A stretch of DNA of 45,373 bases, taken from an uncultured Pirellulaceae bacterium. GTDB lineage: Bacteria; Planctomycetota; Planctomycetia; Pirellulales; Pirellulaceae. The first letter of the stretch is position 1. Each line of letters begins with the position of its first letter. This document shows, in pieces, positions 23,338-42,075 of this stretch. Location of the stretch: assembly GCA_937941455.1 (NCBI GenBank), contig CALDHM010000018.1, positions 1-45,373 of the forward strand. The letters run 5' to 3'. The notes under the pieces are model-generated. The model was not told the origin of the DNA. It saw nothing but the letters and a program-made list of their open reading frames with translations, and searched no databases. The position numbers and the translations under genes were made by a program.

Positions 23338-23437
23338 GGCTTTGTCCCGAAACGATTAGCCCGAACGCGGTAGCGTCCGGCTTTCGCGAAACCCCAGGGG
23401 CTAGCGCCCTGCGGCTGATGGGTTTTGGCAAAAGCCC
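23338..23437. mobile_element. 100-bp element with terminal inverted repeats (copy A)
   Basis: It starts GGCTTTGTCCC and ends GGCAAAAGCCC (imperfect inverted ends), with an interior CGATTAG...CGCGGTAGCGTCCGG...GGGGCTAGCGCCCTGCGG. Copies at 41925-42024 (same length, high similarity) and 26534-26635 (more diverged) define a family. No coding capacity, so a MITE- or REP-like non-autonomous element. It lies between the antiporter start and the DUF1598-like gene end. Confidence 0.75.
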
Positions 23438-23518
23438 AGCGTATCCCGATGCCGAAGGCACTCGTAACCCGAAGCGTAAGCGAGGGCTGTTTGGGGGATA
23501 GCCTTTGATTCACTGGGT

Positions 23519-23556
23519 AGAAAATCAAACAAGCCAGTCGTCGATGACAGGCTTGT
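23519..23556 (-). terminator. Probable terminator of the DUF1598-like gene
   Basis: On the minus strand ACAAGCC and GGCTTGT (23556-23550 and 23535-23529) form a seven-pair stem with further partial pairing inside, followed by TTGATTTTC. It lies 32 bases past the stop at 23588. The T-run is interrupted. Confidence 0.55.
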
Positions 23557-23587
23557 GTGTTTATGCATTCAAATTGGTCGGACCGAA

Positions 23588-25072
23588 TTACTTGCCCGAC
23601 TTGACCGGTCTATCGGTCTCGGCAGGTTCCGCATCCCACCACCATTGCCGGTCCGCCAAGTGGGCCAAGCTCAACTTGCCCCGCAATTCGTCGAGACTGG
23701 CATCATCACGGCTCAACGACTCATTTACGAAGGCTGCGTGCGGTTGCAGACTGACGCCTCCCGCGATCGGTGCGGAAAACGCTCCGTTACGCCTCGCGAT
23801 GTTCACCACAGGTTCGATGTGCGTGGGTGCATTGTACCGCTGAGTCGGGACTTTCGATTCATCATTGAAAACAGCCATGTCCCAACCTGCCTTACTGAAA
23901 AGGTCCGACCGTTGAATGAAGGCCGCGGCGACGGTGAGATCGACGAGGTTGCGCAATTCGCCGAAAAGGGTGTCCTTAGCGGCCAATCGATCGAATTCTT
24001 TTGTGAACGAAAAGCAGAAGTTGCGCGAGGCCTTATTCGACTTTTCTTTCGTTTCGACTTTGCGTCCTGCGGCGTCCAAGCGATCCTCGGCCGGGACGAG
24101 TTCCACCGTATTGGCCAAATCAAGCCGCAACGCGGTTTCGTCGCTGTTGACGAAAACGCCTTGATATTTTGGCTGGAAGAACCAGCGAATTGACGCGTTG
24201 GCGTTGCCGGGGATCATCGGCATTTGGTCGAAGTAATTGTTGATGCGAACAGCGGGAATTTCCAAGCCGAGACCGATCAGCTTCATGCGATAATCGGCCT
24301 CCGTCAGCACCAAGGCGAATCGCGTTTTGTTCGAGACCCCTTTGATCGTGACCTCTTGCGGACCCATGGCCGCGATCAATCCGGCTCGTACCGTGGCATC
24401 ATCCACATTAGTCGTCAGTGCCAACTGGCCCCATTTGGCGAACGCTTGGTTGTAATTGCGAATTCCCTGCTCGGTGGGATCGATCGAGACCGAGATTACT
24501 GGGGTAGGACGTTGTTTCGGTGCGAAGGCTCGCAGCGCAACGACGAGATCCTCGAAGTGCATCGTCGCAGCCCCCGATTCGAGACCAACCACGCGACCAC
24601 GGCCGTTGACATAAAAGCCCTCGGCCGGACCGGCCAGCACGATGTCACTGGCATCAGGCAGATAAAACACGTTCGTGATCCGAGTGAGCCCTGCCAGGTG
24701 ACGAATGTCATCCGACAGCGGTTTGCCAGCCGCATGGGTGGCGGCGACGGCTTCCTCCAACCGTTTAAGCGAGACCATTCGCAGCGATGATGGCCGTTGC
24801 AGGTCTTGATTGAGCGACGCCCGCGCGGCTCGCGCGAGGTCGCGATCGATCTTGCCCGAAAAATCGCGATTCATGTTTGCACGCAGCACACCGGAGGCGT
24901 CGATTTCCACCCCGCCCGTACCGGCACCACCCGCAGCACCACCCGCAGCACCACCGGCGCCCCCTGCTCCACCAGCTCCGCCGGCACCACCCGCTTGGCC
25001 AAATGCAGAGTTATTGGTTGCCGCGATCAGGATGATAAAACTGGCGAGAAAAAGCTTGAAAAAATTCCGCAT
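23588..25072 (-). CDS. Exported DUF1598-like protein, function unknown
   Basis: 494 residues from ATG 25072, where a clean signal peptide begins; an ATG at 25123 is in frame but precedes hydrophilic sequence. After signal cleavage near FGQA comes a Gly/Ala tract of about 25 residues (GGAGGAGGAG type), encoded by a short-period DNA repeat. The body includes NVFYLPDASDIVLAGPAEGF and VNGRGRVVGLESGAATMHFEDLVVALR, which fits the planctomycete DUF1598 family, and a second mixed region to the end. Members are exported; no activity is known to me. The C-terminus ends in charged, disordered-looking sequence. Confidence 0.75.
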   Translation of the reverse strand: MRNFFKLFLASFIILIAATNNSAFGQAGGAGGAGGAGGAGGAAGGAAGGAGTGGVEIDASGVLRANMNRDFSGKIDRDLARAARASLNQDLQRPSSLRMVSLKRLEEAVAATHAAGKPLSDDIRHLAGLTRITNVFYLPDASDIVLAGPAEGFYVNGRGRVVGLESGAATMHFEDLVVALRAFAPKQRPTPVISVSIDPTEQGIRNYNQAFAKWGQLALTTNVDDATVRAGLIAAMGPQEVTIKGVSNKTRFALVLTEADYRMKLIGLGLEIPAVRINNYFDQMPMIPGNANASIRWFFQPKYQGVFVNSDETALRLDLANTVELVPAEDRLDAAGRKVETKEKSNKASRNFCFSFTKEFDRLAAKDTLFGELRNLVDLTVAAAFIQRSDLFSKAGWDMAVFNDESKVPTQRYNAPTHIEPVVNIARRNGAFSAPIAGGVSLQPHAAFVNESLSRDDASLDELRGKLSLAHLADRQWWWDAEPAETDRPVKSGK

Positions 25073-25401
25073 CGAATTGCCTTTTACAACGATGATCTGT
25101 GCTGACATGTCAGATTCTCTCAAAAAGTTCGCCGTCTTGCCCCGAATCGGCGAAAGTCGCCAGCGAAATCAAAGAAATGCCGGCGCCTTCCTTAAATAGT
25201 AGTTAACGGGTACCGAATATTCAATCATTTCGGAGCATCTGGCGTGACAAGGGCCCTGCCGTGGGTACGCTACTAAGCTAAATCGTGGGACTCGATCCAG
25301 GGCCAAATAACGAGAGAACCTCGCGTGTTTTTCCGCATATTCGACGTTTCGCCTGCAAATTCCCTACAAACGGACGGCCTTCGAAGGCGAGCCTGTTTGA
25401 T
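25073..25401. other. Intergenic gap, nothing recognised
   Basis: This stretch holds the upstream region of the DUF1598-like gene and the downstream side of the lipoprotein gene. Frames present are shadows. No repeat, hairpin or promoter pair stands out. Confidence 0.4.
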
Positions 25402-26325
25402 TCAGCGGTTGGGCCGCCACTTGGATCGATTTTCAGGCAGAGCTGTCGATCGCGCTGGGGCCAACGCGGGATCAAGCTCAGAAAAATCGTCCTCTGCCGA
25501 TAAACGCGACAGGATCGAACTTGACCCCTCCGAGACATCGCCGCCGGTTGAGATACGAGCGAAAACAAGATTCGCCGAATTCCGCAGTGGAGCATCCCAG
25601 TTGACATCCAATTCGATATAGCGGCGCGCGCGGTCGTAATTGAGGCGGCCCAGTTGGTCGGCGTCAAATCGCCAATACCCGATCCGCTGCTGACCGTTGG
25701 GCAAGTTAGGGTCCAATAAACTGACCTGGACCAAGTCGACCGCCCCCAAATCAACGCAAGGAATTTTGACGATCATGCCGTCATCAATACCGTCGTTATT
25801 TTGATCACGCGGCGTGGCCTCGATCGTCAAGTCGAAATTGACTTTTGGTACAGAGGGGGGCGCAGAAATAGCGGACTGGATGTTTGGATTGCTGCGACGC
25901 CGATTTCCATTTCCGACGTTGTTGTCCCCGTTGCCATTGCGTGGGGGCGGCTGGGGGTCTTCGATAAACAGATCGAGTTCCTCGGGCGGCGAGCGTTTGG
26001 CTGGCGGCGTTTGTGGCGTCGTGGGTGACGTGCTGGGGGGGGGCGTCGTGGAGGGAGTGTAGTCAGGCGCGACAGCCGGGGCTTCAATCGACACGTCCTC
26101 GGCGAAGGTTTCTCCGTCGGCCGCGCATCGACTGCGAAGCGCAGCGTAGCGGTCCTCGAGGGCGATCAACTCGGCCTTGAGGAGCGCGATTTCACGCCGC
26201 GCTCGCGGGTCGGTTTGGCAGCCTAAAGCACCCAGCAACAGGCACAGCGGCACGACAGCCCCATGAAAGCGGCGAATGTTCCAGCTCCGGCGAGGCAGCG
26301 GAAAATTTGGTTTCGAGTGAACCAT
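25402..26325 (-). CDS. Lipoprotein with Pro/Thr-rich linker, function unknown
   Basis: 307 residues. The signal peptide ends in a clear lipobox LGALGC (Cys36). A short helical, coiled-coil-like stretch follows (about 42-68, RREIALLKAELIALEDRYAAL), then a low-complexity Pro/Thr/Ser and Asn/Gly-rich linker (about 85-165). A beta-rich domain comes next, with a DQNNDGIDDG sequence that resembles a calcium-binding Asp-rich loop. The coiled coil near the membrane plus a long linker suggests a surface or periplasmic spacer protein; this is inference. No family was recognised. Confidence 0.65.
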   Translation of the reverse strand: MVHSKPNFPLPRRSWNIRRFHGAVVPLCLLLGALGCQTDPRARREIALLKAELIALEDRYAALRSRCAADGETFAEDVSIEAPAVAPDYTPSTTPPPSTSPTTPQTPPAKRSPPEELDLFIEDPQPPPRNGNGDNNVGNGNRRRSNPNIQSAISAPPSVPKVNFDLTIEATPRDQNNDGIDDGMIVKIPCVDLGAVDLVQVSLLDPNLPNGQQRIGYWRFDADQLGRLNYDRARRYIELDVNWDAPLRNSANLVFARISTGGDVSEGSSSILSRLSAEDDFSELDPALAPARSTALPENRSKWRPNR

Positions 26326-26533
26326 TTTCGGTGGACCACGACGACATTTTTGCTCATCTTGACGTTACCCCCCGGTCTCGCGAGAGCTTGTCTAATAAAT
26401 CCGCATTTCCCGCAATGCCAAGTTGGCCCGCTAGCGGCCGAATGCCTGCTGGCCTTGATGCTGGCGGTAGCGAACACGTCAGGTGAAAGGTTCGCGGCAA
26501 ATCATGGCTCGGCGAAAATTCGAATGAAAACTA

Positions 26534-26635
26534 GGCTTTGTCGGAAAACGATGAGCTGGAACGCGTTGGCGCACGCTTTTCACGCAAACCGCAGGCGAGC
26601 TCACCGTAGCTGACAAATTTTTTTGGCACAAAGCC
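26534..26635. mobile_element. 102-bp element with terminal inverted repeats (copy C, diverged)
   Basis: Starts GGCTTTGTCGG and ends GGCACAAAGCC, so the outer eight or so bases are inverted. Interior matches to copy B include CGATNAG, ACGCGTT and AACCGC, then it diverges. It lies 24 bases past the comB stop. The gap 26326-26659 contains no other feature I can support. Confidence 0.65.
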
Positions 26636-26659
26636 TTGCCCGTCGACGCGCCGACTTGG

Positions 26660-27400
26660 TCACGTCACGTCCCAAGAGGCGACGTTAAAACGCGCGAGCC
26701 TCGGAATGCGGTCGATGTCAGCGCAAAAGGCAATGTCGTCGTGGTAGCCGAGCCGCAGCAAGTTCCTGCCGCCAGCCCCTTTTCCCAATTCTGCGGCCAA
26801 CGCGGTCGCTCTGCCCCCTGTGGCCTCGACAAAACTGCGCCAATAGCCGATCGCAATGGCCGTTTGATCGCAAATCTGCCAGCCGTCGGAAATTTCAAGC
26901 AATCGCGCTGCTAACGCTCCAGCGAATAAAACATCCTCGCTCGTGATCCGCCGATTGGTTCCCGAGCAGACAACGGTTACTTCCTGCTCGTTTGCCAAGC
27001 TCTGTGCGACCGTCGACAGATTGATAAAAGCGCCGATCAGGATTTGCCGTGCCGCCTGGCAATGGGCCAGGGCTCGGGTGCCATTGGTCGTACACAAAAC
27101 CAGAGTTTTTCCGGCAATCACTTCCGGCGTAAACTCGCGGGGTGAATTGCCATAATGGAAGCCCTCGATGATCACCCCCCCCCGCTCTCCGCCCAGGACG
27201 CAGTCTGCCCCCAGAGCCGTTTTGTGAGCGACGGCTTCGGGGATTTCGACAGCCGGAATCACGCGCGTGGCGCCGTTTTCGAGTGCGGTAATGATGGTCG
27301 AGGTGGCCCGCAGCACGTCGGTGACGACGACCACTCGATCGGTCAAGTTGTCGCTGGTGGCCAAATCGGGCAAGAATAATGTGCTGAAACGGCGCGACAT
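26660..27400 (-). CDS. comB: 2-phosphosulfolactate phosphatase family protein
   Basis: 246 residues, the usual length. Family landmarks are VVVVTDVLRATSTIITALENGA near the N-terminus, GERGGVIIEGFHYGNSP, VLCTTNGTRAL and VTVVCSGTNRRITSEDVLFAGAL. The archetype ComB is a Mg2+-dependent phosphatase in methanogen coenzyme M synthesis; bacterial members have other or unknown substrates, so the name reflects family rather than role. It is divergent from the menaquinone run (130 bases to ubiE), and copy C of the palindromic element follows its stop. Confidence 0.88.
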   Translation of the reverse strand: MSRRFSTLFLPDLATSDNLTDRVVVVTDVLRATSTIITALENGATRVIPAVEIPEAVAHKTALGADCVLGGERGGVIIEGFHYGNSPREFTPEVIAGKTLVLCTTNGTRALAHCQAARQILIGAFINLSTVAQSLANEQEVTVVCSGTNRRITSEDVLFAGALAARLLEISDGWQICDQTAIAIGYWRSFVEATGGRATALAAELGKGAGGRNLLRLGYHDDIAFCADIDRIPRLARFNVASWDVT

Positions 27401-27529
27401 GGTGAGGTTTGGTGATGATTCTATTTTTGACGCAGCCTAGCCAGCCTCTACACTTGCTTCGCGTTAATGTATCTTGACGAAGGCGGTCCTTTCAACAGGG
27501 GAGCGCGGGGTTCGTTTTAGGTGAGTTGC

Positions 27530-28237
27530 ATGACGGTCGATAAATCCGGCGAGCGCGTCCGACAAATGTTTGGCGAGATCGCTCCTCATTACGATCGGAT
27601 GAATCGCGTCCTGTCGCTAAACACCGATGTCTACTGGCGTTGGCGGACCACGCGAATCGTCCGACCCAATCGTCAAGATCCCATTCTCGACTGTTGCAGC
27701 GGCACCGGGGATCTCGCCTTTGCATGGGAGCGAGCTGCCGGCTATGCCGTCCCCGTCATTGCCGCCGACTTTTGTCCCGAAATGTTGGAACTCGGGATGA
27801 AAAAACGGGAACGGGGCACTCGCAGCCGCGTGCAGTTCATCACCGCGGACACTCAGCAACTACCTTTCGATTCCGACCAATTCCAAATCGTATCGGCTGC
27901 TTTCGGCTTGCGAAACGTTGCCGAAACGGACCGCGGGTTGGCCGAGATGACGCGCGTTTGCAAGCCTGGCGGAAAAGTCGTCATCCTCGAATTTTCGACG
28001 CCGCGCCGCCAACCGATCAAGGCGTGTTATCAGTGGTACTTCCGCAACGTTCTACCGCGGATCGGCCAGACGTTTGCCCGCAATCGCTTCGACGCCTATC
28101 AGTATCTCCCCGACAGCGTCGCGGACTTTCCAGCTTATGAGGCTTTGACAGAACGGATGGTCGCGGCCGGTTTGCAATCAGCGAGGTTCTATCCATTGAC
28201 GTTTGGTATCGCGACTCTGTATGTGGGTGAAAAATGA
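27530..28237 (+). CDS. ubiE: Demethylmenaquinone methyltransferase (UbiE/MenG)
   Basis: 235 residues from ATG 27530 with AGGTGAG five bases upstream (an in-frame GTG lies at 27521). Family motifs: VRQMFGEIAPHYDRMNRVLSL at the N-terminus, the SAM-binding ILDCCSGTGDLAF, and CKPGGKVVILEFSTPR. It methylates demethylmenaquinone to menaquinone, the last step of the pathway, at the membrane. The stop overlaps the ubiX start as ATGA. As mqnE is nearby and ubiquinone is not expected in this group, the menaquinone role is favoured. Confidence 0.94.
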   Translation: MTVDKSGERVRQMFGEIAPHYDRMNRVLSLNTDVYWRWRTTRIVRPNRQDPILDCCSGTGDLAFAWERAAGYAVPVIAADFCPEMLELGMKKRERGTRSRVQFITADTQQLPFDSDQFQIVSAAFGLRNVAETDRGLAEMTRVCKPGGKVVILEFSTPRRQPIKACYQWYFRNVLPRIGQTFARNRFDAYQYLPDSVADFPAYEALTERMVAAGLQSARFYPLTFGIATLYVGEK

Positions 28238-28854
28238 GTCTGCCATTAGTGCTGGGGATTACGGGAGCCAGCGGCGTGATCTATGGGCGGCGTTTGCTCG
28301 AAGTGTTGTTGCAGCAAGGGCACACCGTTCATCTGTCGATCAGCGAGTCGGGCCAACAAGTGCTCCACCACGAATTGGGCTTGGCCATCGATCTGAAGCG
28401 CTTTGAACTGGACGATCTGCTGCCCGGCGGCTCGCAGTTGCCCGGGCGAGTGGTTTACCACTACTACAAAGATTTCATGACGCCGATCGCCAGCGGTTCG
28501 TTCCGGACCCGAGCCATGGTCGTTTGTCCCTGCAGCGGCAGTACCTTGAGCGGGATCGCCACCGCGAGCAGCGGGAATTTGATCCAGCGGGCGGCTGATG
28601 TTCATCTGAAAGAGCGGCGTCCATTGATTTTGGTCCCGCGGGAAACTCCGCTCTCGCTCATTCAACTCGACAATCTGCGGACGGTCGCTGCCGCGGGGGG
28701 GACGATCCTGCCAGCAGCACCTGGCTTTTATCATGGGGCGGAGCGAATCGAACAACTCGTCGATTTTATCGTCGCGCGAATTTTGGATCATTTGGCGATC
28801 GAACACCGTCTGATGAGGCGGTGGGTTGGGGGAGCGGATGAAACAGATTTGTGA
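28234..28854 (+). CDS. ubiX: Flavin prenyltransferase, UbiX/Pad1 type
   Basis: 206 residues. The opening LVLGITGASGVIYGRRLLEVL, then FRTRAMVVCPCSGSTLSGIATASSGNLIQRAADVHLKERRPLILVPRETPLS is diagnostic. It prenylates FMN to the cofactor used by UbiD decarboxylases. In futalosine menaquinone synthesis a UbiX/UbiD pair (MqnM/MqnL) decarboxylates the dihydroxynaphthoate ring; the UbiD partner is not in this window. Start and stop overlap the neighbouring genes by 4 and 17 bases, so it is mid-operon. Confidence 0.95.
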   Translation: MSLPLVLGITGASGVIYGRRLLEVLLQQGHTVHLSISESGQQVLHHELGLAIDLKRFELDDLLPGGSQLPGRVVYHYYKDFMTPIASGSFRTRAMVVCPCSGSTLSGIATASSGNLIQRAADVHLKERRPLILVPRETPLSLIQLDNLRTVAAAGGTILPAAPGFYHGAERIEQLVDFIVARILDHLAIEHRLMRRWVGGADETDL

Positions 28855-29755
28855 ATTTTTGTCGATGATCCGCTTCAGTCATACGCTGTTCGCACTGCCG
28901 TTCGCCCTGCTGGCGGCATTGATGGCCTGGGTCGCTCCGGCGAGTACCGCGATGGAGTTTAGCTGGCGGCATTTGCTGGGTATTTTGCTGGCGATGGTCG
29001 GGGCACGCAGTGCCGCGATGGCGTTCAATCGCATCGCCGACCGGGAGATCGACGCAGCGAATCCGCGGACGGCCGGCCGACATTTGCCGGCTGGCCGATT
29101 GTCGGTGGGGAGTGTTTGGGTGTTCACGTTGATTTCCATCGCCATCTATCTGATGGGGGCCGCGTTGTTTTGGCCGAATTACTTGCCGGTTGTGTTCGCA
29201 TTGCCGGTTTTGGCGGTCCTGCTCGCCTACAGTTACATGAAACGCATTACGGCGCTCTCGCATTTTTGGTTGGGTCTTTCGTTGATGTTGGCTCCGGTGT
29301 GCGCGTGGATTGCGATTCGAGGACTGGAGGTGGTGGCCGATCCGCGCGATTTGCTCCCGGCCACCATTTTGGGGTTGGCGGTTCTGTTTTGGGTAGCCGG
29401 ATTCGATATCATTTATGCCTGTCAAGATTATGAATTTGATCGGCAGGCGGGATTGAGAAGCGTCCCGGTCTGGCTGGGGATTCCCGGGGCATTGCGGTTG
29501 GCCGCCTTGTGCCATGCGATCATGCTCGCGTTTTTGGTGGCCCTGCCCTTCAGTCACCAGTGGGGCGGGCCGCCGCTGCATTTTTCTTGGCTGTATTTTG
29601 CTGGCGTCTTGGGGATTGCCGGGCTGCTGATTTACGAACACTGGTTGGTCAAGCCGACAGACTTGAGCCGAGTCAACCAAGCTTTTTTTAATGTCAATGC
29701 CGTCGTGAGCGTTGGTCTGTTATTCATTGCAGGACTTGATTTGATGAAATCATAA
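28838..29755 (+). CDS. ubiA: UbiA-family prenyltransferase (probable menaquinone MqnP)
   Basis: 305 residues from ATG 28838, with GGGGGAG five bases upstream; the start lies inside the ubiX end. About eight membrane segments. The two Asp-rich motifs are present: NRIADREIDAANPRTAGRHL and YACQDYEFDRQAGLRSVPV, which bind the prenyl diphosphate through Mg2+. It attaches the polyprenyl tail to the aromatic ring. The first motif is in its 4-hydroxybenzoate-transferase-like form, but the mqnE neighbour points to the naphthoate substrate of the futalosine route. Confidence 0.93.
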   Translation: MKQICEFLSMIRFSHTLFALPFALLAALMAWVAPASTAMEFSWRHLLGILLAMVGARSAAMAFNRIADREIDAANPRTAGRHLPAGRLSVGSVWVFTLISIAIYLMGAALFWPNYLPVVFALPVLAVLLAYSYMKRITALSHFWLGLSLMLAPVCAWIAIRGLEVVADPRDLLPATILGLAVLFWVAGFDIIYACQDYEFDRQAGLRSVPVWLGIPGALRLAALCHAIMLAFLVALPFSHQWGGPPLHFSWLYFAGVLGIAGLLIYEHWLVKPTDLSRVNQAFFNVNAVVSVGLLFIAGLDLMKS

Positions 29756-29816
29756 GGCAAGCGGCGAGTCTGCCTCGCGGCCACGCGCTGCAACCTGATT
29801 GCGAAAGGTAAGAATC

Positions 29817-30965
29817 ATGATTCATTCTGTAGCACCGATTTTGAAATCCATCCGCGACAAAGTCGAAGCGGGCGAACGTCTGACCATGGACGATGGGATC
29901 GCCATGTACGATCCGCGAGTTCCCCTGAATGACTTGGGCGTGTTAGCGAACTACGTCCGCGAGAGGATCAATGGAAACGCTGGCTACTACAACATAAATA
30001 CGCATTTGAACGCGACCAATGTTTGCGTTTATCGCTGCGTGTTCTGCGCGTTCCGCTCCGATCTGCGCAGCCTTAAGGGTTACGTGATGAGTGACGAGCA
30101 GATTCTTGAACGCGGCCGCGAAGCGGTCGAGAATGGCTGCACCGAAATGCATATCGTCGGCGGCCTGCATCACCAAAAAAAGTTCGACTGGTACAAAAAT
30201 ATTTTGCGAATTTTGCACGACGCCTATCCCACGCTCCATCTCAAAGGCTGGACGGCCGTTGAAATCAATTGGTTCGAGTTTTTGACGAAGCAGTCGACCG
30301 AGTGGGTGCTGCGAGAGCTGATGGAGGCCGGCCTAGGGAGCTTGCCCGGAGGCGGGGCAGAGATTTTCCATCCCCAAGTCCGCGATAAAATCTGTGAGCA
30401 CAAGGCCGATGGTACAAATTGGATCAACATTCATCGCACGGCGCACCGGTTGGGACTAAAAAGCAACTGCACGATGCTGTACGGACACATCGAAGAACCG
30501 TTCCATCGCATCGATCATTTAATTCGATTAAGAGACTTGCAGGACGAAACCGGCGGCTTTCAAACGTTCATTCCCCTGGCATTCCATCCGGACAACACCG
30601 GACTCTCGCATCTGCCGAAGCCCAGCGCGGCGTTGGACTTGCGGACGATCGCCATCAGCCGCTTGATGCTCGACAACATTCCCCATATCAAGGCCTACTG
30701 GGTCATGCTGGGAATCGGCACCGCGCAAACTGCCTTGGCGTACGGCGCTGACGATATCGATGGAACGGTGCGGCATGAATTGATCTATCACGATGCAGGG
30801 GCGACGACGCCCGAATACCTTTCGGTGGAACGCATCGAACAACTGATCCGCGAGGCCGGACGTGAACCGATCGAGCGGGACACCTTGTACCGACGAGTCA
30901 TCCGCGATCCTGCCAATCCCGCCGCGTGGACGGTCGGTGAGGCGATCGGCGCGGCGGTCTCGTAG
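29817..30965 (+). CDS. mqnE: Aminofutalosine synthase, radical SAM
   Basis: 382 residues from ATG 29817 with GAAAGG about nine bases upstream (a TTG at 29799 is in frame). The radical-SAM cluster motif is Cys70-X3-Cys74-X2-Cys77 (CVYRCVFC). TEMHIVGGLHHQKKFDWY and GGGAEIF are typical of the MqnE/MqnC family. The enzyme joins the chorismate-derived enolpyruvate benzoate to SAM to form 6-amino-6-deoxyfutalosine, an early step of the futalosine pathway. It closes the run ubiE - ubiX - ubiA - mqnE; the gap from ubiA is 61 bases. It is MqnE rather than MqnC judged by the neighbouring sequence and length, with modest certainty on that split. Confidence 0.9.
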   Translation: MIHSVAPILKSIRDKVEAGERLTMDDGIAMYDPRVPLNDLGVLANYVRERINGNAGYYNINTHLNATNVCVYRCVFCAFRSDLRSLKGYVMSDEQILERGREAVENGCTEMHIVGGLHHQKKFDWYKNILRILHDAYPTLHLKGWTAVEINWFEFLTKQSTEWVLRELMEAGLGSLPGGGAEIFHPQVRDKICEHKADGTNWINIHRTAHRLGLKSNCTMLYGHIEEPFHRIDHLIRLRDLQDETGGFQTFIPLAFHPDNTGLSHLPKPSAALDLRTIAISRLMLDNIPHIKAYWVMLGIGTAQTALAYGADDIDGTVRHELIYHDAGATTPEYLSVERIEQLIREAGREPIERDTLYRRVIRDPANPAAWTVGEAIGAAVS

Positions 30966-31164
30966 CGAAATCAGGCCCCGATTGATTGGGATTTTTCTTC
31001 GCGGCGCGCTGTCGTGCCGTAGTGCGGCTGCCTCTTGTTGCTAGCGGCCGATTCATTGATTGAACTTGGGTTGCTCCGGCCCTTTTGCTAACTTCGCGCC
31101 ACGACCATGGCGACCGTCTGTCGATGGCGCGGTCGTGGGGAGTTCGCGGAATAAGGGTAGGAAA

Positions 31165-32619: not shown

Positions 32620-32785
32620 CGGTCAGCTCGCAAGATAACCGAAATTTCGCAGCGGACGGCAGACTCAACCGAAGGGAGTGCCTAGAATAAGTGGAGCGGT
32701 GACGGACACGGCAACGCGATTGGTTTGCGCCGAGTGACTCTGCGACTGCAGCATGTAGCGAATCCGAACAACGGAAATCAACAAC

Positions 32786-34366: not shown

Positions 34367-34696
34367 TCGAACAGCGGTGACCGAGCAACGTCGATAATGG
34401 TCGGCGGAATCGTCCGCACTGCGATTCAGATCTGCTCGGCGAGCCGTCAACTCGCTAAAATTTCGGCGATAGTTTTCAAGGTTGCAGGCTAAGAGCGAAT
34501 GACCTTGGCTCCCCGCGTGGTAACGGCGGTGAAGACGATGGGAACGGGATTCGTGGCGTTGTGGCTTGCCGATGGTCTGACTTGCTCCCAGAAATAGGTC
34601 CCACGAAGACCGCGTGGAGGAAACTGACTTGCAAATCTCGTTGAATGTTAGAAGGCTAAAGGATTTTCTTAATCGATTGGACGGGATGACCACGAC
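34367..34696. other. Intergenic gap, nothing recognised
   Basis: Frames on the minus strand across 34151-34693 are shadows or chance. No terminator with a T-run was found, and no repeat. Confidence 0.4.
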
Positions 34697-35356
34697 ATGA
34701 ATGCCCTCTTGCCATTTTTGATCACCGCGGGGATTTTTTTGGTCGTCGTGATTATCGCTTGGTATGCCAGCGTTCTGGAAAAACGGCGGACCGAGGCTTT
34801 CAAGCAGTTTGCCGACGAGGTAGGGCTAGAATTCGTACCGGTCGACTCAACCCGTTTGCGTTCGATCCGATCCCAGTTTTCCTTGTTCTCTCGGGGGAGT
34901 GTCCAAGTCATCAAAAATGTGATCGTCGGCGATTCTGGCGAGGTGGAAATTGCGAGCTTCGACTTTCACTATGAATCAGGGACAGGCAAAAACAAAACAA
35001 CCAGCAAACAAACAGTCGCGGTCATCAATTCGAAGCAATTGAAATTGCCGGAATTTCAACTTCGCCCAGAATCGATCTTGGACAAGGTCGGTGCCTTTTT
35101 GGGAATGGCCGACATTAATTTCGATAACCATCCGCAGTTTTCCGCAGCTTTTGTACTCCAAGGACCGGATGTCGAAGCCATCCGTAAATTGTTCACAGCG
35201 AAAATCCTCGACTTCTTCGTGAGCCGCCCCGGGATTCATGTCGAAGGGGGGCCTGCCGGGCTGCTGATCTATCGAAAAACCCTGCGGACACCTGAAGAAA
35301 TTCGCGCCGTACTGGCCGAGGCGTACGAAATCTTCGGGCTCTTTGTCGACCGGTAA
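34697..35356 (+). CDS. Single-pass membrane protein, function unknown (DUF3137-like tail)
   Basis: 219 residues: one N-terminal membrane segment (about 6-26), then a soluble cytoplasmic or periplasmic domain. The pattern EKRRTEAFKQFADEVGLEF is common in small membrane proteins that resemble DUF3137, but the match is loose. A beta-rich middle (VQVIKNVIVGDSGEVEIASFDFHYE) and a C-terminal helix follow. It converges on the next gene with 17 bases between stops. Confidence 0.6.
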   Translation: MNALLPFLITAGIFLVVVIIAWYASVLEKRRTEAFKQFADEVGLEFVPVDSTRLRSIRSQFSLFSRGSVQVIKNVIVGDSGEVEIASFDFHYESGTGKNKTTSKQTVAVINSKQLKLPEFQLRPESILDKVGAFLGMADINFDNHPQFSAAFVLQGPDVEAIRKLFTAKILDFFVSRPGIHVEGGPAGLLIYRKTLRTPEEIRAVLAEAYEIFGLFVDR

Positions 35357-35373
35357 GCCGCCGGACGGAGTCG

Positions 35374-35877
35374 TTAATTCGACGAAGTTGGTGGGGGGGG
35401 CTTGACTTCGGCGGGCTGGTCTTCGCTTGCGCTAGGGGCCGACTCGATTTGCCGCAGCTGCTTGCGGGCTTCATGCAGCTCGAGTGCCTTGCGGACCATT
35501 TCCTGCTTCGCGCGGTCGTCCACGGTTGAAAATTCATGCAGCCAGACCGACAAAAAGTCCAGCAAGCCCAATCCGAGCATCACGAAGAGCAACAGGCACA
35601 TCACCACCGTGAGGATCACGAAGGTGCGCGGCTCGTGTACCCAACTGAGTGCCGCCATAATAGCCCCAAGGGCAGACAGCAGCGAGCCGACCAAGGCGCG
35701 TCGACGAAATTTCTTCAGTTCGAATTTCAGATTTCGTAGCTTGCGTTCATGCTTCAGTACCGCCACCCAGTCGCGGCGATGGGTGTACATCAGCAGCAAA
35801 CCAGCGGCGAACAAAGCAGCACCGAACAGCAGCAAAACGCTCTGCCGATCGATTGCTTGCCCGAGGCTTAGGGCCAT
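35374..35877 (-). CDS. Membrane protein, function unknown
   Basis: 168 residues from ATG 35877, which overlaps the stop of the upstream M28 peptidase as TGATG, so translation is coupled. Longer in-frame starts lie inside the peptidase gene and are unlikely. Three hydrophobic segments (about 12-33, 62-82 and 88-115) separated by a basic loop (HRRDWVAVLKHERKLRNLKFELKKF). The C-terminus is a charged helix and ends in a proline-rich tail. It may assist the peptidase; nothing else suggests a role. Confidence 0.65.
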   Translation of the reverse strand: MALSLGQAIDRQSVLLLFGAALFAAGLLLMYTHRRDWVAVLKHERKLRNLKFELKKFRRRALVGSLLSALGAIMAALSWVHEPRTFVILTVVMCLLLFVMLGLGLLDFLSVWLHEFSTVDDRAKQEMVRKALELHEARKQLRQIESAPSASEDQPAEVKPPPPTSSN

Positions 35878-36914
35878 CAATTCATTTTTTGCAGCTGGCG
35901 CAGCCATTCGACCAACACTCTCCCCACCTTCTCCAGCGATTCCGCCGAGCAATTATCGGGAATATCTTTTTCGGTATGCCAATAAATATTTCCGACCTTC
36001 GTGTTGGGGTAATCGAAATCGATGATGTCGCAGGTCGGAATTTGCGCAATCGAGTTCAGCGGCAAGTGATCGTCCCGGATGTGGTGGCGTTGTTCGGCTA
36101 TGAACTCTTTGACGCCGAGTTCAGCGGCCACTCCCCAAATGCTCCGGCAGAGTTTGGGGGCATACTGTAGACTGTTCCCCTCGTAAAACAATTCGAGTTC
36201 CTGGTCGCCGATCATATCGACAATGATGCCATACGCATATTTGCCATTCCAACGATTCTTCGCGTATTCGGTGGCGAAGTGCGTTGAGCCCAGAAACATC
36301 GGATCGATTCCGGTGCGCCAGACGAACTCTTCGCCATCGAAAAAAACCAGATCAATGCCATACTTGCCGTCGAGCGAACCGAGATGTTTACCCAGCTCGA
36401 AGAAAAAGCCGACCCCGCTCGCGCCGTCATTGGCCCCCAGAAATAGGCCTTGAGGGTTTTGAGGATCCCGGTCAGGAAAGGGACGCGTGTCGTAGTGGCA
36501 ACCGATCAGCAAGCGGCGTTTGCGTTCGGGGTGGAACCGCACGATCATGTTTTTAAGTTGGACCTGGCGGTTAGGCTCCAAGGGATGTGCGACCAAAAAA
36601 TCTTGCTCGATGATTTTCGCTCCCCATTCCGTGAAGTGATCGCGAATCATCTGTTGTTGCTGAAGCATGGCCTGCGACGTACTCACGCGAGGGCCCAAGT
36701 TGCAGACTGCCTTGAGGATGCTGTAGGCATAGGTGCCATCGAAGGTCGAAAGTGGCGACGACACATCCGCGTCTACTTGTTTTCGGCCAGAGTTTGCGAG
36801 CGGCCGTTCTGCTGTCGCTGCGGAATCCTGAGCCTGGGCTGAGACCGTCCCACCCAAGAATACTGTGACCGTTGCAATCCAAAACACAAAAACCGACATG
36901 CTGATTACCTGCAT
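35877..36914 (-). CDS. Exported M28 peptidase, glutaminyl-peptide cyclotransferase-like
   Basis: 345 residues from ATG 36914; an ATG at 36899 and a GTG at 36932 are also possible. A signal peptide ends near VSAQA. The M28 zinc ligands are visible: GCHYDTRP, GANDGASGVG, FFDGEE, VDMIGD and a final YWHTEKD. Spacing and the WHTEKDIPD end resemble bacterial and animal glutaminyl cyclases, which form N-terminal pyroglutamate, rather than aminopeptidases; this choice is uncertain. It is the first gene of a two-gene coupled unit with a membrane protein. Confidence 0.85.
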   Translation of the reverse strand: MQVISMSVFVFWIATVTVFLGGTVSAQAQDSAATAERPLANSGRKQVDADVSSPLSTFDGTYAYSILKAVCNLGPRVSTSQAMLQQQQMIRDHFTEWGAKIIEQDFLVAHPLEPNRQVQLKNMIVRFHPERKRRLLIGCHYDTRPFPDRDPQNPQGLFLGANDGASGVGFFFELGKHLGSLDGKYGIDLVFFDGEEFVWRTGIDPMFLGSTHFATEYAKNRWNGKYAYGIIVDMIGDQELELFYEGNSLQYAPKLCRSIWGVAAELGVKEFIAEQRHHIRDDHLPLNSIAQIPTCDIIDFDYPNTKVGNIYWHTEKDIPDNCSAESLEKVGRVLVEWLRQLQKMN

Positions 36915-37156
36915 TTCTCTGGGCGGGTCCACTCCGTTTTCATCATTCTAGTGGTTTGCGGTCCCCGCGGGCGTGGGGGCAGTCGACAGGAACAGTAAAA
37001 ATAATAGTGAAAAGCACTCCTGTCCGATCTCGGCCCGTATTCCAGAACGGCCAATTCGCACGTTGTTGCGGGCCCATTTTTCTATTGCTCGTTTCCGAGA
37101 AATTCCCCTAAAATATGCCGTCCGTTTTGGTTCGAGGGCTGCAAGGAGGTTCGCCA

Positions 37157-37780
37157 ATGCTCAATGTCGATGAAATCGTCAATTTGCATGAGTCTATGGT
37201 TGTTGCGTGGCACCAGCAGTCACCGGACCCATCGAAGTGCCGGGAAGTACCCGAAGATTTTTTAGACATCGTACGCATTCAGCATGCCTACAACTTTTTA
37301 CTTTGGCATGAAGAGGATAAAGCGCGGAAACCGAATGCGAGCGATCAAGAAATCGCACAAGTCAAACGGGCCATCGACCGGCTGAACCAACTCCGCAACG
37401 ATTGGATCGAAAAGTTGGATGATCGCCTGCAATCGCACCTCGAAGAGCAGGGAGTACGGCTCAAGAAGATGGCTATCAAGTGCACCGAGACGCCCGGCTC
37501 GGCCATCGATCGGCTGTCGATCATGGCGTTGCGATTGTATCATTTGCAAGAAGAACTCATGCGGCGAGACGTCGACCAAGGCCACAAGGCCAAGGTCAGG
37601 GACCGATTCGATCTCTGCCTGCAACAACAGGCACATCTGGCTGAAGCCCTTGAATTGCTGTGGAAGGGGATCGAAACTGGAAGTATCCAACATCGGGCCG
37701 TCCGCCAATTGAAAATGTATAATGACCCCACGTTGAACCCCGAGATCTACAAGCGCGGTCAGGATCAGCGGGCCGCTTGA
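37157..37780 (+). CDS. DUF4254 family protein
   Basis: 207 residues from ATG 37157, which has AAGGAGG seven bases upstream; an ATG at 37115 is in frame but lacks this. All-helical. Family pattern is strong: HAYNFLLWHEEDKARKPNASDQEIAQVKRAIDRLNQLRNDWIEKLDD and TETPGSAIDRLSIMALRLYHLQEE. DUF4254 has no firm activity; genes of this family often lie near envelope-glycan genes. It is 55 bases ahead of the EEP-domain membrane protein on the same strand. Confidence 0.85.
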   Translation: MLNVDEIVNLHESMVVAWHQQSPDPSKCREVPEDFLDIVRIQHAYNFLLWHEEDKARKPNASDQEIAQVKRAIDRLNQLRNDWIEKLDDRLQSHLEEQGVRLKKMAIKCTETPGSAIDRLSIMALRLYHLQEELMRRDVDQGHKAKVRDRFDLCLQQQAHLAEALELLWKGIETGSIQHRAVRQLKMYNDPTLNPEIYKRGQDQRAA

Positions 37781-37835
37781 GATCGCCGTCATGATGCTGG
37801 CTATCGGCACGATTTGAGGAACAGAAATACCCGTA

Positions 37836-38888
37836 ATGTCCAGCGAGGATGATTTCCAAGGCGTTCGCAGGGGTCGCCAGGTTCGCTCGTTGAGCGTGTC
37901 CTGTCTCGTGACCCTGGGTTGGACGTTGACCTTCTTGATGCTGTTTTCGTGGGCCGGCCGCTGGGTTTTCGCTGCAGAACTGCTGTCGAGTGTGCAACTG
38001 CAAATGGGACTGGTCGGTATCGGCCTGGCGGCTCTGTTATTCGCCTGCCGGATCCCGCGAGTCGCGACCGGGCTCTTGCTCGTCTCACTGGCGACGCTCG
38101 CCAATCCGCTCGAGGTTTACTGGCGTCGGCCAGCTGCCGCCGAAAGTAGCCGCGACCGGTTGCGGGTGATGGCATTCAATATCTTGGTGGTCAATCGACA
38201 AAATTCGCAGATCAAACTGACGATCGAAAAGGCGCAGGCCGACGTCGTGTTGTTGGTCGAGTACGCTCCATGGCATGAGGAGTTGCTTGATGATTTGCGC
38301 GATACTTTCCCCTACCAATTAAAGGAGCCGCGAAATTATGGCTACGGCTTGGCGATTCTCAGTCGTTACCCGATCGTCGATCACGAAATCGACCATTTGA
38401 TCCTCAAGCCGGACGATCTCCCCGTGGCATTGCATCACAGCTGGAAGGAGGATCCGTATATTTTGGCGACAGTGGAATGGAACGGTAGGAAGCTGCAAAT
38501 CATGGGGGTTCATCTGTTCAATCCCACGAGTTTCTCTCAATTCCTCCGCCGCACGCAACAGTTCGACCGGTTGACTGAAATCGTGAAGGCACAGACCGAG
38601 CACCCCCTCATCCTGATGGGGGATTTCAATTGCGTCCCGTGGTCGCCGTTTTTTCGCGATTTTTTGCGGGCGACCGGCCTATCGGATTCGCGCAATGGCT
38701 TCGGCTACCAGGGTTCGTGGCCGACGGGGGGGGATCTGGTGAGCATTCCCATCGACCACATTCTCGTCTCGCGGGATCTGTCCGTGCAACACCGGCAAGT
38801 GTTGCCTGTTGCTGGTTCGGATCACTATCCCGTGATCTGCGACTTGTCGATTCTCAATGACGAAACGGTGGAAAGTAGAATCCCTTAA
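37836..38888 (+). CDS. Membrane-anchored endonuclease/exonuclease/phosphatase (EEP) domain protein
   Basis: 350 residues. About three hydrophobic segments fill residues 15-95. The catalytic domain begins near LRVMAFNILVVNR and has VLLVEYAPWHEELL, LMGDFNCVPWSPF and a final IDHILVSRD ... SDHYPVICDL, so the metal-binding Asn, Glu, Asp/Asn and Asp-His pairs of the EEP fold are in place. The domain probably faces the outside. Related proteins with N-terminal membrane spans are phosphodiesterases or nucleases; the substrate is not evident. Its stop overlaps the end of the next, converging gene by four bases. Confidence 0.88.
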   Translation: MSSEDDFQGVRRGRQVRSLSVSCLVTLGWTLTFLMLFSWAGRWVFAAELLSSVQLQMGLVGIGLAALLFACRIPRVATGLLLVSLATLANPLEVYWRRPAAAESSRDRLRVMAFNILVVNRQNSQIKLTIEKAQADVVLLVEYAPWHEELLDDLRDTFPYQLKEPRNYGYGLAILSRYPIVDHEIDHLILKPDDLPVALHHSWKEDPYILATVEWNGRKLQIMGVHLFNPTSFSQFLRRTQQFDRLTEIVKAQTEHPLILMGDFNCVPWSPFFRDFLRATGLSDSRNGFGYQGSWPTGGDLVSIPIDHILVSRDLSVQHRQVLPVAGSDHYPVICDLSILNDETVESRIP

Positions 38889-39754
38889 GGCTCTAGTTCG
38901 TCGTAGTCCATTTTGAAGAACTGATCGATGAACGTGAAATCGCCAGTTTTCAGGCCTTGAGTGAACCAGCGTGTTCGCTGTTCGGATGTGCCGTGCGTGT
39001 ACTCGCGAGGATCGGCGTAACGACCCGCCTTTTGCATGAGCGTGTCATCTCCAATGGCCTGGGTCGCCTTGATCGCCTGAACGATATCCTTTTGTTCCAA
39101 GATTTCGTACTGGCGATGAGCGTGATGGGCCCAGACTCCGGCCATATAGTCAGCCTGGAGCTCGAGCCGGACCAGGGCCTGGTTCGCGGCGATCTTGTTG
39201 CCCCGCTGCCGGACCTTTTCGAACAAATCGGTATAGCCCAGCAGTTTCTGTACATGGTGGGAAATCTCATGAGCGATCACGTAAGCTTGGGGAAATTCTC
39301 CCGGAGCGCCGTGCCCCCGCGCGAGTTCATCGAAAAACGAGGGCGGGATGTAGACCTTTTCATCTCCCGGGCAGTAAAACGGTCCCATCTGCGGGCTTGC
39401 CGGTCCGCATCCGGTTTGTAACGGGCTGTCGAAAATGACAAGTTCCGGTGGTTGATAGCGTCCGTTGGTGTGTTTCTTGAACTGGTCGGTCCACACATCT
39501 TCGGTGCTGGCCAAGATGACGGAAATAAACTTGCGGGTTCCGTCATCAGGCGGTGGGCGCTCTCCGCGGGTTTGCGTTGCGGGTGCTTGGACTTGTTGCT
39601 GCAAGAGGCGGGCAAAATTTTGATCCCCCGTGAACAAGAAGAGAAGCAAAAGAATTACAACGCCGATGCCTCCCCCCCCGGCAACCAACGTTCCGGGACT
39701 CATGCCGCGACGGTCCTTGACGTTTCCACTTTCCCTCATCCCATCCAGTTTCAT
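38885..39754 (-). CDS. Neutral zinc metallopeptidase, YpfJ family
   Basis: 289 residues with one N-terminal membrane span (about 25-42) and a Gln/Pro linker. The zinc motif is HEISHH (His162, Glu163, His166), and the downstream LELQADYMAGVWAHHA supplies the third ligand region. FYCPGDEKVYIPPSFFDEL and GDDTLMQKAGRYADPREYTHGTSEQRTRWF are characteristic of this family. GGGGAG lies about six bases upstream of the ATG at 39754. Substrate unknown. It converges with and overlaps the EEP gene by four bases. Confidence 0.93.
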   Translation of the reverse strand: MKLDGMRESGNVKDRRGMSPGTLVAGGGGIGVVILLLLFLFTGDQNFARLLQQQVQAPATQTRGERPPPDDGTRKFISVILASTEDVWTDQFKKHTNGRYQPPELVIFDSPLQTGCGPASPQMGPFYCPGDEKVYIPPSFFDELARGHGAPGEFPQAYVIAHEISHHVQKLLGYTDLFEKVRQRGNKIAANQALVRLELQADYMAGVWAHHAHRQYEILEQKDIVQAIKATQAIGDDTLMQKAGRYADPREYTHGTSEQRTRWFTQGLKTGDFTFIDQFFKMDYDELEP

Positions 39755-40093
39755 ATTCGCTCCCCAACGTGGTTGTTAAATCGATTTTTGGTATCAGGGC
39801 AACTCCAACGATCCAGCAATTAAACAAGTCGGTTCGGTCACAACTACTCGCCGCCGCGCACCCCGCATTTGCTGGAACACGGATCTATTTTGGGAATCAC
39901 CTGTCGGCTAGGCAAGGTGCAAGTTTCCAAAAAGCCGAAGTAAAGGGGGCGGTAAGCTAAAAATTCTGGCTTCTGCTTGCGACAGAACTGCACCGACAGG
40001 AATTCGGGGAGGCGATTGAGACTCAATGCGATTAGTCGAACGTCGATCGCAACGGAATTTCGGCCAAAACCGCAGAATACGCGGACTTCCTTG
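39755..40093. other. Intergenic gap, nothing recognised
   Basis: It holds the upstream region of the metallopeptidase gene and the downstream side of the EVE gene. No hairpin with a T-run, and no repeat. Confidence 0.4.
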
Positions 40094-40558
40094 TCAATCC
40101 TTCACCATCGCCATGATGATTGCAAACTGCCGATTTGTCACTGGTTGCACCGAAAGGCGCGATCCCTTGCGGAGCAACTCCATCCCCTGCAAACCCTTAG
40201 TTTCTCGAAGTTCATCCAGCGTGATCTTGGCAGGGAACTTTCGTTTCAGCTTGATATCCACCACGTACCAACGCGGGTTGCCGGGTTTGGAATGCTCGTC
40301 ATAGTAAGGGCTGCGGGGATCGAACGCCGTAGGGTCAGGGTAACCCTCGCGCACGACCTCAGCCAGGCCGACGATACCCGGTGGCTCGTCATTGCTGTGA
40401 TAGATGAAACACAAGTCGCCTCGTTTGAGTTGATCCCGCAGAAAATTTCGGGCTTGGTAATTGCGGACGCCGTCCCAAAACGTAGTCTGCTGTTTAGCTC
40501 GGGCCAAATCGTCAATCGAAAACGTCTCAGGCTCCGTTTTCAGTAGCCAATACTTCAT
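40094..40558 (-). CDS. EVE domain protein
   Basis: 154 residues, one EVE domain. The opening KYWLLKTEPETFSIDDLARA, then WDGVRNYQARNFLRDQLKRGDLCFIYHSN and GIVGLAEVVREGYPDPTAFD are diagnostic. EVE belongs to the PUA/YTH-like fold that holds modified nucleotides, often a flipped modified base. It is a solitary form with no fused nuclease. Twelve bases separate it from the floA stop, so the two are co-transcribed. The target modification is unknown. Confidence 0.93.
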   Translation of the reverse strand: MKYWLLKTEPETFSIDDLARAKQQTTFWDGVRNYQARNFLRDQLKRGDLCFIYHSNDEPPGIVGLAEVVREGYPDPTAFDPRSPYYDEHSKPGNPRWYVVDIKLKRKFPAKITLDELRETKGLQGMELLRKGSRLSVQPVTNRQFAIIMAMVKD

Positions 40559-40570
40559 GCGGCGGTCAAT

Positions 40571-41581
40571 TTACACAGACAGGAATCCCTTGCGGAAGGC
40601 CTCGGCCATGGCCAGGGGAACCTCCGCTTCGGCCATCACCAGGCGTGCCCGGTTCTCCGCGACCTGCGCCTTCATCTCTTGCTCGGTGGCGATCGCCTCG
40701 GCGCGGCGACTCTCCGCCCGAGCACGGGCCACGCGGGTATCTGCCTCGGCCTGATCCGCCTGCAGGCGGGCCCCGATGTTCTCTCCCACCGCGATATCGG
40801 CAATGTCGATCGAGACGATTTCGAAGGCGGTATGCGCGTCGAGGCCGCGAGCCAACACCGCCTTGGAAATGCGGTCGGGATGCTCCAGCACCTCTTGATG
40901 CTGCGCCGAAGAACCGATCGACGACACAATGCTTTCGCCGACGCGAGCGATGATCGTCTCCTCGGTAGCGCCGCCGATCAATTGTTCGAGGTTCGTGCGC
41001 ACGGTCACCCGCGCGCGAATCTTCAGTTCAACCCCGTCACGGGCGATCGCACTCAGAAAATTTTTGCCGCTTCGTTGCGGGTCGGGGCAGTCGATGACCT
41101 TGGGGTAAACGCTCGTCTTCACCGCATCCAGCACATCGCGTCCGGCCAGATCGATGGCGGCCGCGCGATCGAAGTCGAGATCGATGTCGGCCCGCTGGGC
41201 GGCAATGATCGCGTTGACAACGCGAATGACATCGCCACCCGCGAGATAATGCGCCTCAAGTCGTTGGGTGCTGATTCCCGTTTTGCGATTGATATCCAGC
41301 CCTGCCTGTGCGGCCATGATTTTGGCGTTGACGATGAGTTGCGGTCGCACTTGGCGGAACTGCATGCCGATCAAGCTGGCGAGGCTCACGTCGGCGCTCG
41401 ATGTAAACGCCTGCAACCAAAGATTGCCGTAGGCGGCGATGGCTGCCAGGAAGGCTAACCCCAACCCGACCCCGATCACAATCAAAATGCCGTACACGAT
41501 CCATTGCCAAGGGATGTCGTTTTGTTGAGCCAAGAAGTTCGCGGCCGTTAGCAGCGTTTGCGAGAACAGGATTTCGTTCAT
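40571..41581 (-). CDS. floA: Flotillin-like protein FloA (YqfA type)
   Basis: 336 residues from ATG 41581; the longer frame from 41695 adds non-matching sequence. One hydrophobic segment (about 27-50), then the long SPFH-like core: [66 protein letters not shown], and [32 protein letters not shown]. The C-terminus is an Ala/Glu-rich helix ([17 protein letters not shown]) for oligomerisation. FloA forms membrane microdomains that organise signalling and secretion proteins. It heads a two-gene unit with the EVE gene. Confidence 0.95.
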
Positions 41582-41924
41582 GAGGTTACAACTCGGCGTA
41601 AATGATCCAGAAACTAACACCCAACCAAATTTTAATTCATTTCTTGTGAACCTGCAGCATTGGTTCGAACAGCTGCGAGAATGATCCCCAGCCACTGTAG
41701 CTACCGATCGGCGCGATTGCGGCGAGTCGCGATGAGGCGGTTCGTGCTCTTGTGGCGGAGCCTGGACAAATCATCGCTAAATTGTAAGCCTTCGAAAATC
41801 GCGGTGACAGTAGCCGAGAATGCCGAGAATGCTGAATCGGGGCACGCCGCGATCGTCGCGAAGAGAGATTCTGAGGCGGCAGCGGAGGTTTCTACCCACG
41901 GCCAAAATGTTAAACGAGCATAGA

Positions 41925-42024
41925 GGCTTTGTCCCAAAGCGATTAGGCGGTACGCGTTAGCATCCGTTTTTTGCGAGAACCGCGGACTAGCGTCCTGCGG
42001 CTGCGGGGGGTTGGCACAAAGCCC
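41925..42024. mobile_element. 100-bp element with terminal inverted repeats (copy B, best preserved)
   Basis: It starts GGCTTTGTCCC and ends GGCACAAAGCCC, so the ends are inverted repeats of about eleven bases. The interior holds a second palindrome CCGCGGACTAGCGTCCTGCGG-like (written in part: GGACTAGCGTCC). It aligns along its full length with copy A (23338-23437), also exactly 100 bp. It lies in the 850-bp gap between floA and the S9 peptidase. Confidence 0.8.
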
Positions 42025-42075
42025 GGGTTTTGCAGGAGTTTGCCGTCGCTGCCAAGCGTTGAATCTCCTAACGCC

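Follow-up and report, generated by a model that had tools for sequence, protein, structure and literature searches.

Repetitive extragenic palindromic (REP) sequences are recorded in the Planctomycetes by a survey whose consulted part names R. baltica (PMC3733652), and the Paracoccus members of the IS427 group of insertion sequences (ISs) mostly have 2-bp repeats, some of them with two overlapping, frameshifted open-reading frames (ORFs) (PMC3281130, in excerpt). REP doublets forming hairpins (REPINs) and miniature inverted-repeat transposable elements (MITEs) are treated as separate classes, served by different enzymes (HUH/Y1 versus DDE transposases); the element described here appears to be both. 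It is a 105-bp palindrome found in a stretch of 45,373 nucleotides, which we refer to as the window, from an uncultured Pirellulaceae bacterium (assembly GCA_937941455.1, contig CALDHM010000018.1, positions 1–45,373). The element is, with good confidence, an IS5-family MITE, most likely IS427-like, with a captured REPIN, amplified by a transposase acting in trans. A first-pass annotation of the window had offered a non-autonomous mobile element or a member of the REP/bacterial interspersed mosaic element (BIME) class, and both descriptions apply, the former to the ends, which are of the MITE kind, and the latter to the interior, which consists of a REP doublet.

The element and its copies in one genome

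The window is contig C18 of a genome (G000) of 4,042,072 bases in 77 contigs. After re-orientation the copies of the element yield a single consensus, CTAGGCTTTGTCCCAAAACGATTAGCCGGAACGCGTTAGCGTCCGGTTTTCGCGAGAACCGCGGGCTAGCGCCCTGCGGCTGACGGGTTTTGGCACAAAGCCTAG, some of the first copies having looked reversed because the element is palindromic. Its layout is C-TA, GGCTTTGTSCCNAAA, a REP, a centre, an inverted REP, TTTNGGSACAAAGCC, TA-G, with GGCTTTGTSCCNAAA forming the terminal inverted repeats (TIRs) at both ends. The three intergenic palindromes marked in the first-pass annotation all lie where it placed them, and they align end to end over about 105 bp, interior included. Their parts, and a decayed fourth copy absent from that annotation, are given below; lengths include the outer CTA and TAG, and scores are from R1, a profile built from 29 aligned copies (L024, with an insertion, and L010, with a doubled end, were excluded).

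23335–23439, plus strand: copy 1, 105 bp including the outer 3 bases, 107 bits; flanked by a Na+/H+ exchanger gene and a DUF1598 protein gene
23338–23352, plus strand: left TIR of copy 1, GGCTTTGTCCCGAAA, an exact match to GGCTTTGTSCCNAAA
23357–23382, plus strand: left REP-like hairpin unit of copy 1 (model positions 23–48), with relatives in other genomes
23393–23417, minus strand: right, inverted REP-like hairpin unit of copy 1 (model positions 58–82, one inserted base; coordinates set by hand)
23423–23437, minus strand: right TIR of copy 1, mutated, GGCTTTTGCC... (coordinates set by hand)
26531–26638, plus strand: copy 2, diverged, 108 bp, 88 bits; the TIR at its right end is exact
41922–42026, plus strand: copy 3, 105 bp, 101 bits; between divergent FloA-like (minus) and S9 peptidase-like (plus) ORFs
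5110–5217, minus strand: copy 4, decayed, 32 bits (E 5.5e-8); between long ORFs at 2084–4795 and 5228–6772

Copies 1–3 share one orientation and are the top three profile matches in the window, the profile's source copies including them. The one diverged copy reported earlier is copy 2, which has the lowest score of the three and an ungapped identity of 66% and 72% to the other two; 21 bp separate it from the end of a 2-phosphosulpholactate phosphatase-like ORF (26660–27400, minus strand). All three sit between long flanking ORFs, five of which have Pfam matches and the sixth (25402–26325) none; short unsupported ORFs of 89–140 aa do overlap the copies.

With copy 3 as the blastn query, at least 40 matches were found in the genome at E 1.1e-10 or better (the best 40 of 79 candidates), and R1 gave at least 150, each spanning positions 1–105 of the model (the best 150 of 1703 candidates). 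The first of the two outcomes that the first-pass annotation named as refuting, a lack of further copies in the genome, therefore did not occur. R1 incorporates a weak RNAalifold fold and, as that fold is weak, works mainly as a sequence profile; matches that all cover positions 1–105 leave room for core-only REPINs in the same genome. In a control of 20 Y1 transposase loci from relatives the best match reached 13 bits (E 0.09). The pattern CTAGGCTTTGTSCC occurs 216 times in the genome at up to two mismatches versus 67 times for its reversed control, and exact GGCTTTGTSCCNAAA 33 times versus 0, so that by blastn, profile and motif counts alike copies 1–3 are far beyond chance.

Conservation over the 29 aligned copies is about equal in the TIRs (0.885 and 0.922) and the REPs (0.886 and 0.866), and is lower in the CTA and TAG at the very edges (0.72 and 0.74), in keeping with bases that derive from the target; TA is retained at 19 of 29 left ends and 14 of 29 right ends. 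The second refuting outcome, copies lacking the inverted ends, did not occur either: both ends are recognisable in nearly all of the 31 copies read, with L012 and L024 strongly altered on one side. Single-ended matches elsewhere in the genome are decayed copies of the 105-bp element, and an autonomous copy among them was rejected after reading the strong ends in 15 stretches, all of which belong to such decayed copies.

At L239 (1430–1548, contig C7 of the same genome) another end comes immediately after a copy and has the CTAG in common with it, an arrangement that insertion of a second element into the terminal CTAG would produce. Directly beside copy 1, at window positions 23442–23502, lies a second repeat-like stretch (TATCCCGATGCCGAAGG...CCCGAAGCGTAAGCGAGGG...GGGGGATAGCC), and a unit resembling it seems to be inserted within another 105-bp copy (L252, around 3117, contig C31).

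Cores and ends in other genomes

Across 60 genomes (this one and 59 relatives) the full element matched in its own genome only. The core without the ends matched in 14 of the 59 relatives, mostly over model positions 21–83 or one half, with the widest matches ranging from 8–48 to 33–95; one of the 14, in G014, looked spurious on reading. The interior is a 69-bp inverted pair of REP-like hairpins, that is, a REP doublet, which in other genomes is either free-standing or enclosed in different inverted ends. Cores with GTAG heads occur in Rhodopirellula JC639, L4_Bin_91 and ACE_PLA12.

The flanks of the core were compared in 40 stretches from seven genomes and eight earlier loci, 12 of these 48 being dropped because the core was weak or the flanks were too short. 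Among 1102 control pairs drawn across genomes, the inverted-repeat score had its 95th percentile at 8 and its maximum at 18; 20 of 36 flank pairs scored above 8, or 19 of 35 when a locus entered twice is counted once; on the same score the 20-bp ends of the window copies themselves give 8, 10 and 11. The ends CTAGTGGTYTGTCA and CTAGTGCTTTGTCACAGCT flank the core in G018 (8 of 11 pairs above 8), (C)TAAGGACTTGTCCGCAAATAA-like ends in G032 (2 of 2) and in one copy in G027, and AGGGCTRWTCAGTGTTT ends in G010 (3 of 4) and in one copy in G020. One of three pairs exceeded 8 in G001, which belongs to the same genus as the window, and none of seven did so in G036, G028, G033, G030 and G013; these seven are therefore regarded as free REPINs. 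The two MITE types of G018 (L331–L342, with CTAGTGGTYTGTCA and CTAGTGCTTTGTCACAGCT ends) carry a REP core of the window's type in several near-identical copies, and are candidates for a recently active system.

The converse is seen from the ends. The exact outer motif GGCTTTGTSCCNAAA occurs in 43 of 241 genomes of the family, clustered in G000, G165, G234, G235 and G146, and the interiors of the latter four were compared in 20 stretches. The same ends bracket elements of 136–139 bp with GTAGCGGAA...-type REPs in G234 and G235, mostly 116-bp elements with GTAGCCGGA...-type REPs in G165, and 106 bp at one locus in G146; L122, L126, L128 and L140 have one good end only and were read as decayed copies. 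In other lineages, then, these ends enclose different, mostly hairpin cargoes. Genome-specific ends around the same core, and the same ends around different cores, together imply a many-to-many pairing. Shorter derivatives of 76 and 88 bp occur in G165 (L134 and L138) with both ends retained, as expected if movement needs the ends alone. Yet another pairing of end and core is found at L127 (1867–1998, G234), where a 136-bp element is adjoined by a REP doublet of a different type whose outer arms are TGGCACGNGCTTA.

A scan for the exact end over 84,980 species returned 67 stretches. The partner end (up to 5 mismatches) lay at 76–160 bp in 38 of the 51 planctomycete stretches, which include one Phycisphaerae metagenome-assembled genome (MAG), versus 0 of 16 others, two of which are titled only 'bacterium'; limited to stretches with at least 160 bp of sequence, the counts are 37 of 45 versus 0 of 15. 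All but two of the 38 paired at up to 4 mismatches (36 of 38), and of the two that paired only at 5, one (L203) is an insertion-sequence end. Two end-motif matches in viral contigs, with no partner end within 400 bp, were taken as chance.

When 13 interiors (one per lineage, kinship uncorrected) were folded against dinucleotide shuffles, 10 reached z −3.4 or lower, the consensus of the window's own element gave z −1.9 (7 of 200 shuffles equally good), and two, from SJ86 and OFTM250, did not fold at all. An outer end lay near 41 of 45 REPs of the type concerned in genus g87 and near 23 of 23 in G165, shares obtained with a loose end pattern (up to 4 of 15 mismatches) without a control and biased upward, because most stretches were chosen for holding ends.

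Transposase, target site and rival explanations

A transposase with matching ends, which the first-pass annotation had proposed as a check, is present in another planctomycete MAG, MAG-41 (JAEUIK01), and was not found in the window's own genome. The exact end occurs in MAG-41 near three contig ends (139–141 bp each). At L203 it precedes an ORF starting MARLLLTDEDWALIAD, which is cut by the contig end, whilst at L156 and L193, which have different flanks, it follows an ORF ending GWLKESRRIFSRFEKTAKNFGGMLKLAFIRQYLTYKLV* (...KTAKNFGGMLKLAFIRQYLTYKLV); the C-terminus of this ORF matches NF033580 (IS5 family transposase) at 226–257 of 258 (E 3e-7). An intact MAG-41 insertion sequence with GGCTTTGTCCC at both ends is predicted. 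The single-contig genome G234, which holds the 136-bp sister MITE, carries two identical 938-bp IS5-family elements, each with a pair of overlapping ORFs that match PF13340 and PF01609/NF033580 and each bordered by TA at either end (contexts acTA/TAga and ctTA/TAgg); their ends, GGCTCTGTTTGAAAACTGGTGTT, are related to those in MAG-41, GGCTTTGTCCCAAAACTGGTGTT. Given the MAG-41 match, the G234 IS and the Paracoccus parallels, the outer ends are placed with the IS5 family, most likely in its IS427 group.

The neighbours of PF01609 transposases were also tried as partners (30 loci read, among 47 matches listed). Only L304 had an exact end, and it belongs to a complete MITE, not to an IS end: a 126-bp element with GTCTC-type ends (1692–1817, G165 contig C37). 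A 473-aa transposase ORF without these ends lies some 66 bp away, which we take as neighbourhood, not partnership. The one-mismatch end at L310 is part of a decayed MITE.

The target site was approached through 13 sites of the 136-bp sister element in 14 genomes of its genus. One of the 13 gave a clean empty site: Rhodopirellula JC639 holds a 135-bp element where G234 reads GTCGGGGCGGG-CTAG-TACTCC (...GGGCGGG-CTAG-TACTCC), the empty site holding a single CTAG and the filled site CTAG on both sides. At the L121 site G234 and G235 have the element, whereas G236 and G233 look empty (CTGA, GTGA) but have flanks too diverged for a clean empty site. The suggested search for target duplications and empty sites has therefore been answered for a sister element in Rhodopirellula, and not for the window's own genome.

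From these observations the history of the element may be sketched as follows. TA-GGCTTTGTSCCNAAA...TTTNGGSACAAAGCC-TA within a CTAG target would be the recognition ends for an IS5-family transposase, most likely IS427-like; supplied in trans, the enzyme would move the element into a CTAG by excision or copying, with duplication of TA. A REPIN, of the type found without these ends in other genomes of the family, would have been caught between two such ends, perhaps once per lineage, and REPIN and ends would then have spread as one composite unit. The mechanism itself, a MITE moved in trans, is ordinary; the rule for its cargo is unusual.

Several observations weigh against the reading of the element as an IS5-type MITE with a captured REPIN. 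Both IS termini in MAG-41 lie at separate contig ends, as three contig-end fragments with no single intact copy, and 3 of 15 positions differ between the end of the G234 IS and that of the MITE. The one clean empty site belongs to a sister element whose core is different and not to any copy in the window's genome, and its single CTAG fits a TA or a CTAG duplication of the MITE alike. In place of the canonical GTAG, the REP head of the window's type is TTAG/TCAG; no RAYT (REP-associated tyrosine transposase, a Y1 enzyme) flanked by the element's REP was found in the window's genome; and the interiors from SJ86 and OFTM250 (2 of the 13 interiors) form no hairpin at all. Finally, that genome yielded no matching IS, as none of the 7 of 8 PF01609 loci and one PF13586 locus read there has these ends, and no autonomous same-ended partner through PF13358, those PF01609 and PF13586 loci or the single-ended matches, though an assembly in 77 contigs could miss one. 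Owing to this, the family there is probably an immobile relic, and we infer its past mobilisation in trans. For relic MITEs an autonomous partner elsewhere is usual, and for this reason the MITE assignment is kept on structural grounds.

Four other explanations were weighed. In the first, the element is a dual substrate: an IS5-type DDE transposase acts on the outer ends and a RAYT on the inner REPs, with cores exchanged in a constant chassis. One chassis with different cores and one core with different chassis are what this would produce, but no core exchange was seen at one site (no systematic search was made) and simple repeated capture accounts for the data, so we regard it as unlikely.

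Rather doubtful, too, is a strict REPIN or BIME, in which the whole 105 bp would be a long-armed REP doublet spread by a RAYT, with the outer ends as simple extensions of those arms, comparable to the 'TIRtrons' in PMC3733652 (in excerpt). The palindromic form and the inverted REP pair inside agree with it, as do the RAYT genes described in the consulted part of the same source, whose flanking TIRs combine degenerate REPs with unrelated stem-loops. Y1_Tnp matches occur in all 18 genomes searched (the 14 core-matching relatives, G000, and G002–G004, which lack the core), and REP-like units of this general type lie near 5 of 60 Y1 loci (L100, L106, L109, L120 and L224); REP-pattern matches number 11 at 9 places in 186 kb around these 60 loci from 24 genomes, versus 14 in 708 kb elsewhere. 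However, the outer ends are common to elements with unrelated interiors, and insertion leaves CTAG on both sides where the empty site has one, whereas known IS200/IS605 members, as far as the consulted part of PMC2817692 describes them, are without terminal inverted repeats or a larger target duplication. No convincing end pair was found at any Y1 locus read (best summed mismatch 6 of 30), and the only Y1 (IS200/RAYT-type) transposase match in the window's genome (L031, contig C22, 3841–4188) has an internal stop and no REP nearby.

A structured RNA or a regulatory hairpin (terminator or attenuator) kept between genes by selection is very improbable: the intergenic position and the minus strand of copy 3, which folds at z −3.15 (the other five strands of copies 1–3 give −0.67 to −2.19), speak for it, but the window has no Rfam match at the gathering threshold, the 29-copy consensus fold (RNAalifold) reaches −4 kcal/mol with two-sided change in 3 of 15 pairs, and the genes neighbouring the copies are unrelated. 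The least credible is a Correia- or RUP-like MITE of the IS630/Tc1-mariner group, which TA duplication inside CTAG and the element's size would fit, as 7 of 8 genomes, single-contig G234 among them, are without a DDE_3 (PF13358) match (G166 has one), and the transposase found with these ends is of the IS5 family.

Known systems and the place of this element

A broader class can be proposed tentatively, on odds somewhat short of even: Planctomycetota 'REPIN-MITEs', in which an exchangeable chassis of DDE end pairs carries an exchangeable cargo of REP doublets or long hairpins, reshuffled between genera. In that proposal, which we hold with the same reserve, an end type carries many cores, and a single core type is found within four or more end types. 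If true, it would be a standing merger of DDE and HUH transposition in which hairpin cargo is favoured, for example as a shield for neighbouring operons or because RAYTs can reload it. A pairing that varies across genera is a natural experiment on what keeps hairpin cargo in place and on the way in which REP families spread, and planctomycete REP counts may reflect IS5-type transposition, not RAYT activity. With one or more insertion polymorphisms between JC639 and G234, the question is open to direct test.

Each part is known; what appears to be new is that ends and cores pair many-to-many. A search of the open-access literature by title and abstract, with most subscription papers outside its scope, returned nothing on REPINs inside IS5-type ends in planctomycetes.

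Among described MITEs, NEMIS, RUP and ERIC (named in the consulted part of PMC3733652) are likewise short and non-coding, with inverted ends and many copies. The cargo here differs from theirs in being a separate class of mobile repeat. NEMIS, RUP and ERIC also belong with other transposase families. The IS427 group of the IS5 family (for example IS1248 and ISPpa2; PMC3281130, in excerpt) resembles the G234 IS in its two overlapping ORFs, short inverted ends and, in most of the members tabulated, 2-bp duplication, whereas the element in the window is 105 bp long, lacks a transposase and carries a REP doublet. Its interior resembles the REPINs of PMC3116915 (in excerpt), with two inverted REPs, a short spacer, an intergenic position and many copies, but it is enclosed in transposon ends, has a TTAG/TCAG head, and no intact associated RAYT was found for it. 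IS elements that insert into REPs (PMC1525189, which in the part consulted names IS5 among five families) also bring IS-type ends and REPs together; in those cases the REP contains or adjoins the IS, whilst in the present element the transposon ends enclose the REP pair. The nearest precedent seen is that of the RAYT-flanking 'TIRs' of P. putida and P. fluorescens (GTAG-1 degenerate REPs; PMC3733652, in excerpt), in which REPs are likewise fused to an unrelated inverted repeat in hundreds of copies; those flank RAYT genes, whereas the outer ends of the element described here match an IS5-family DDE transposase.

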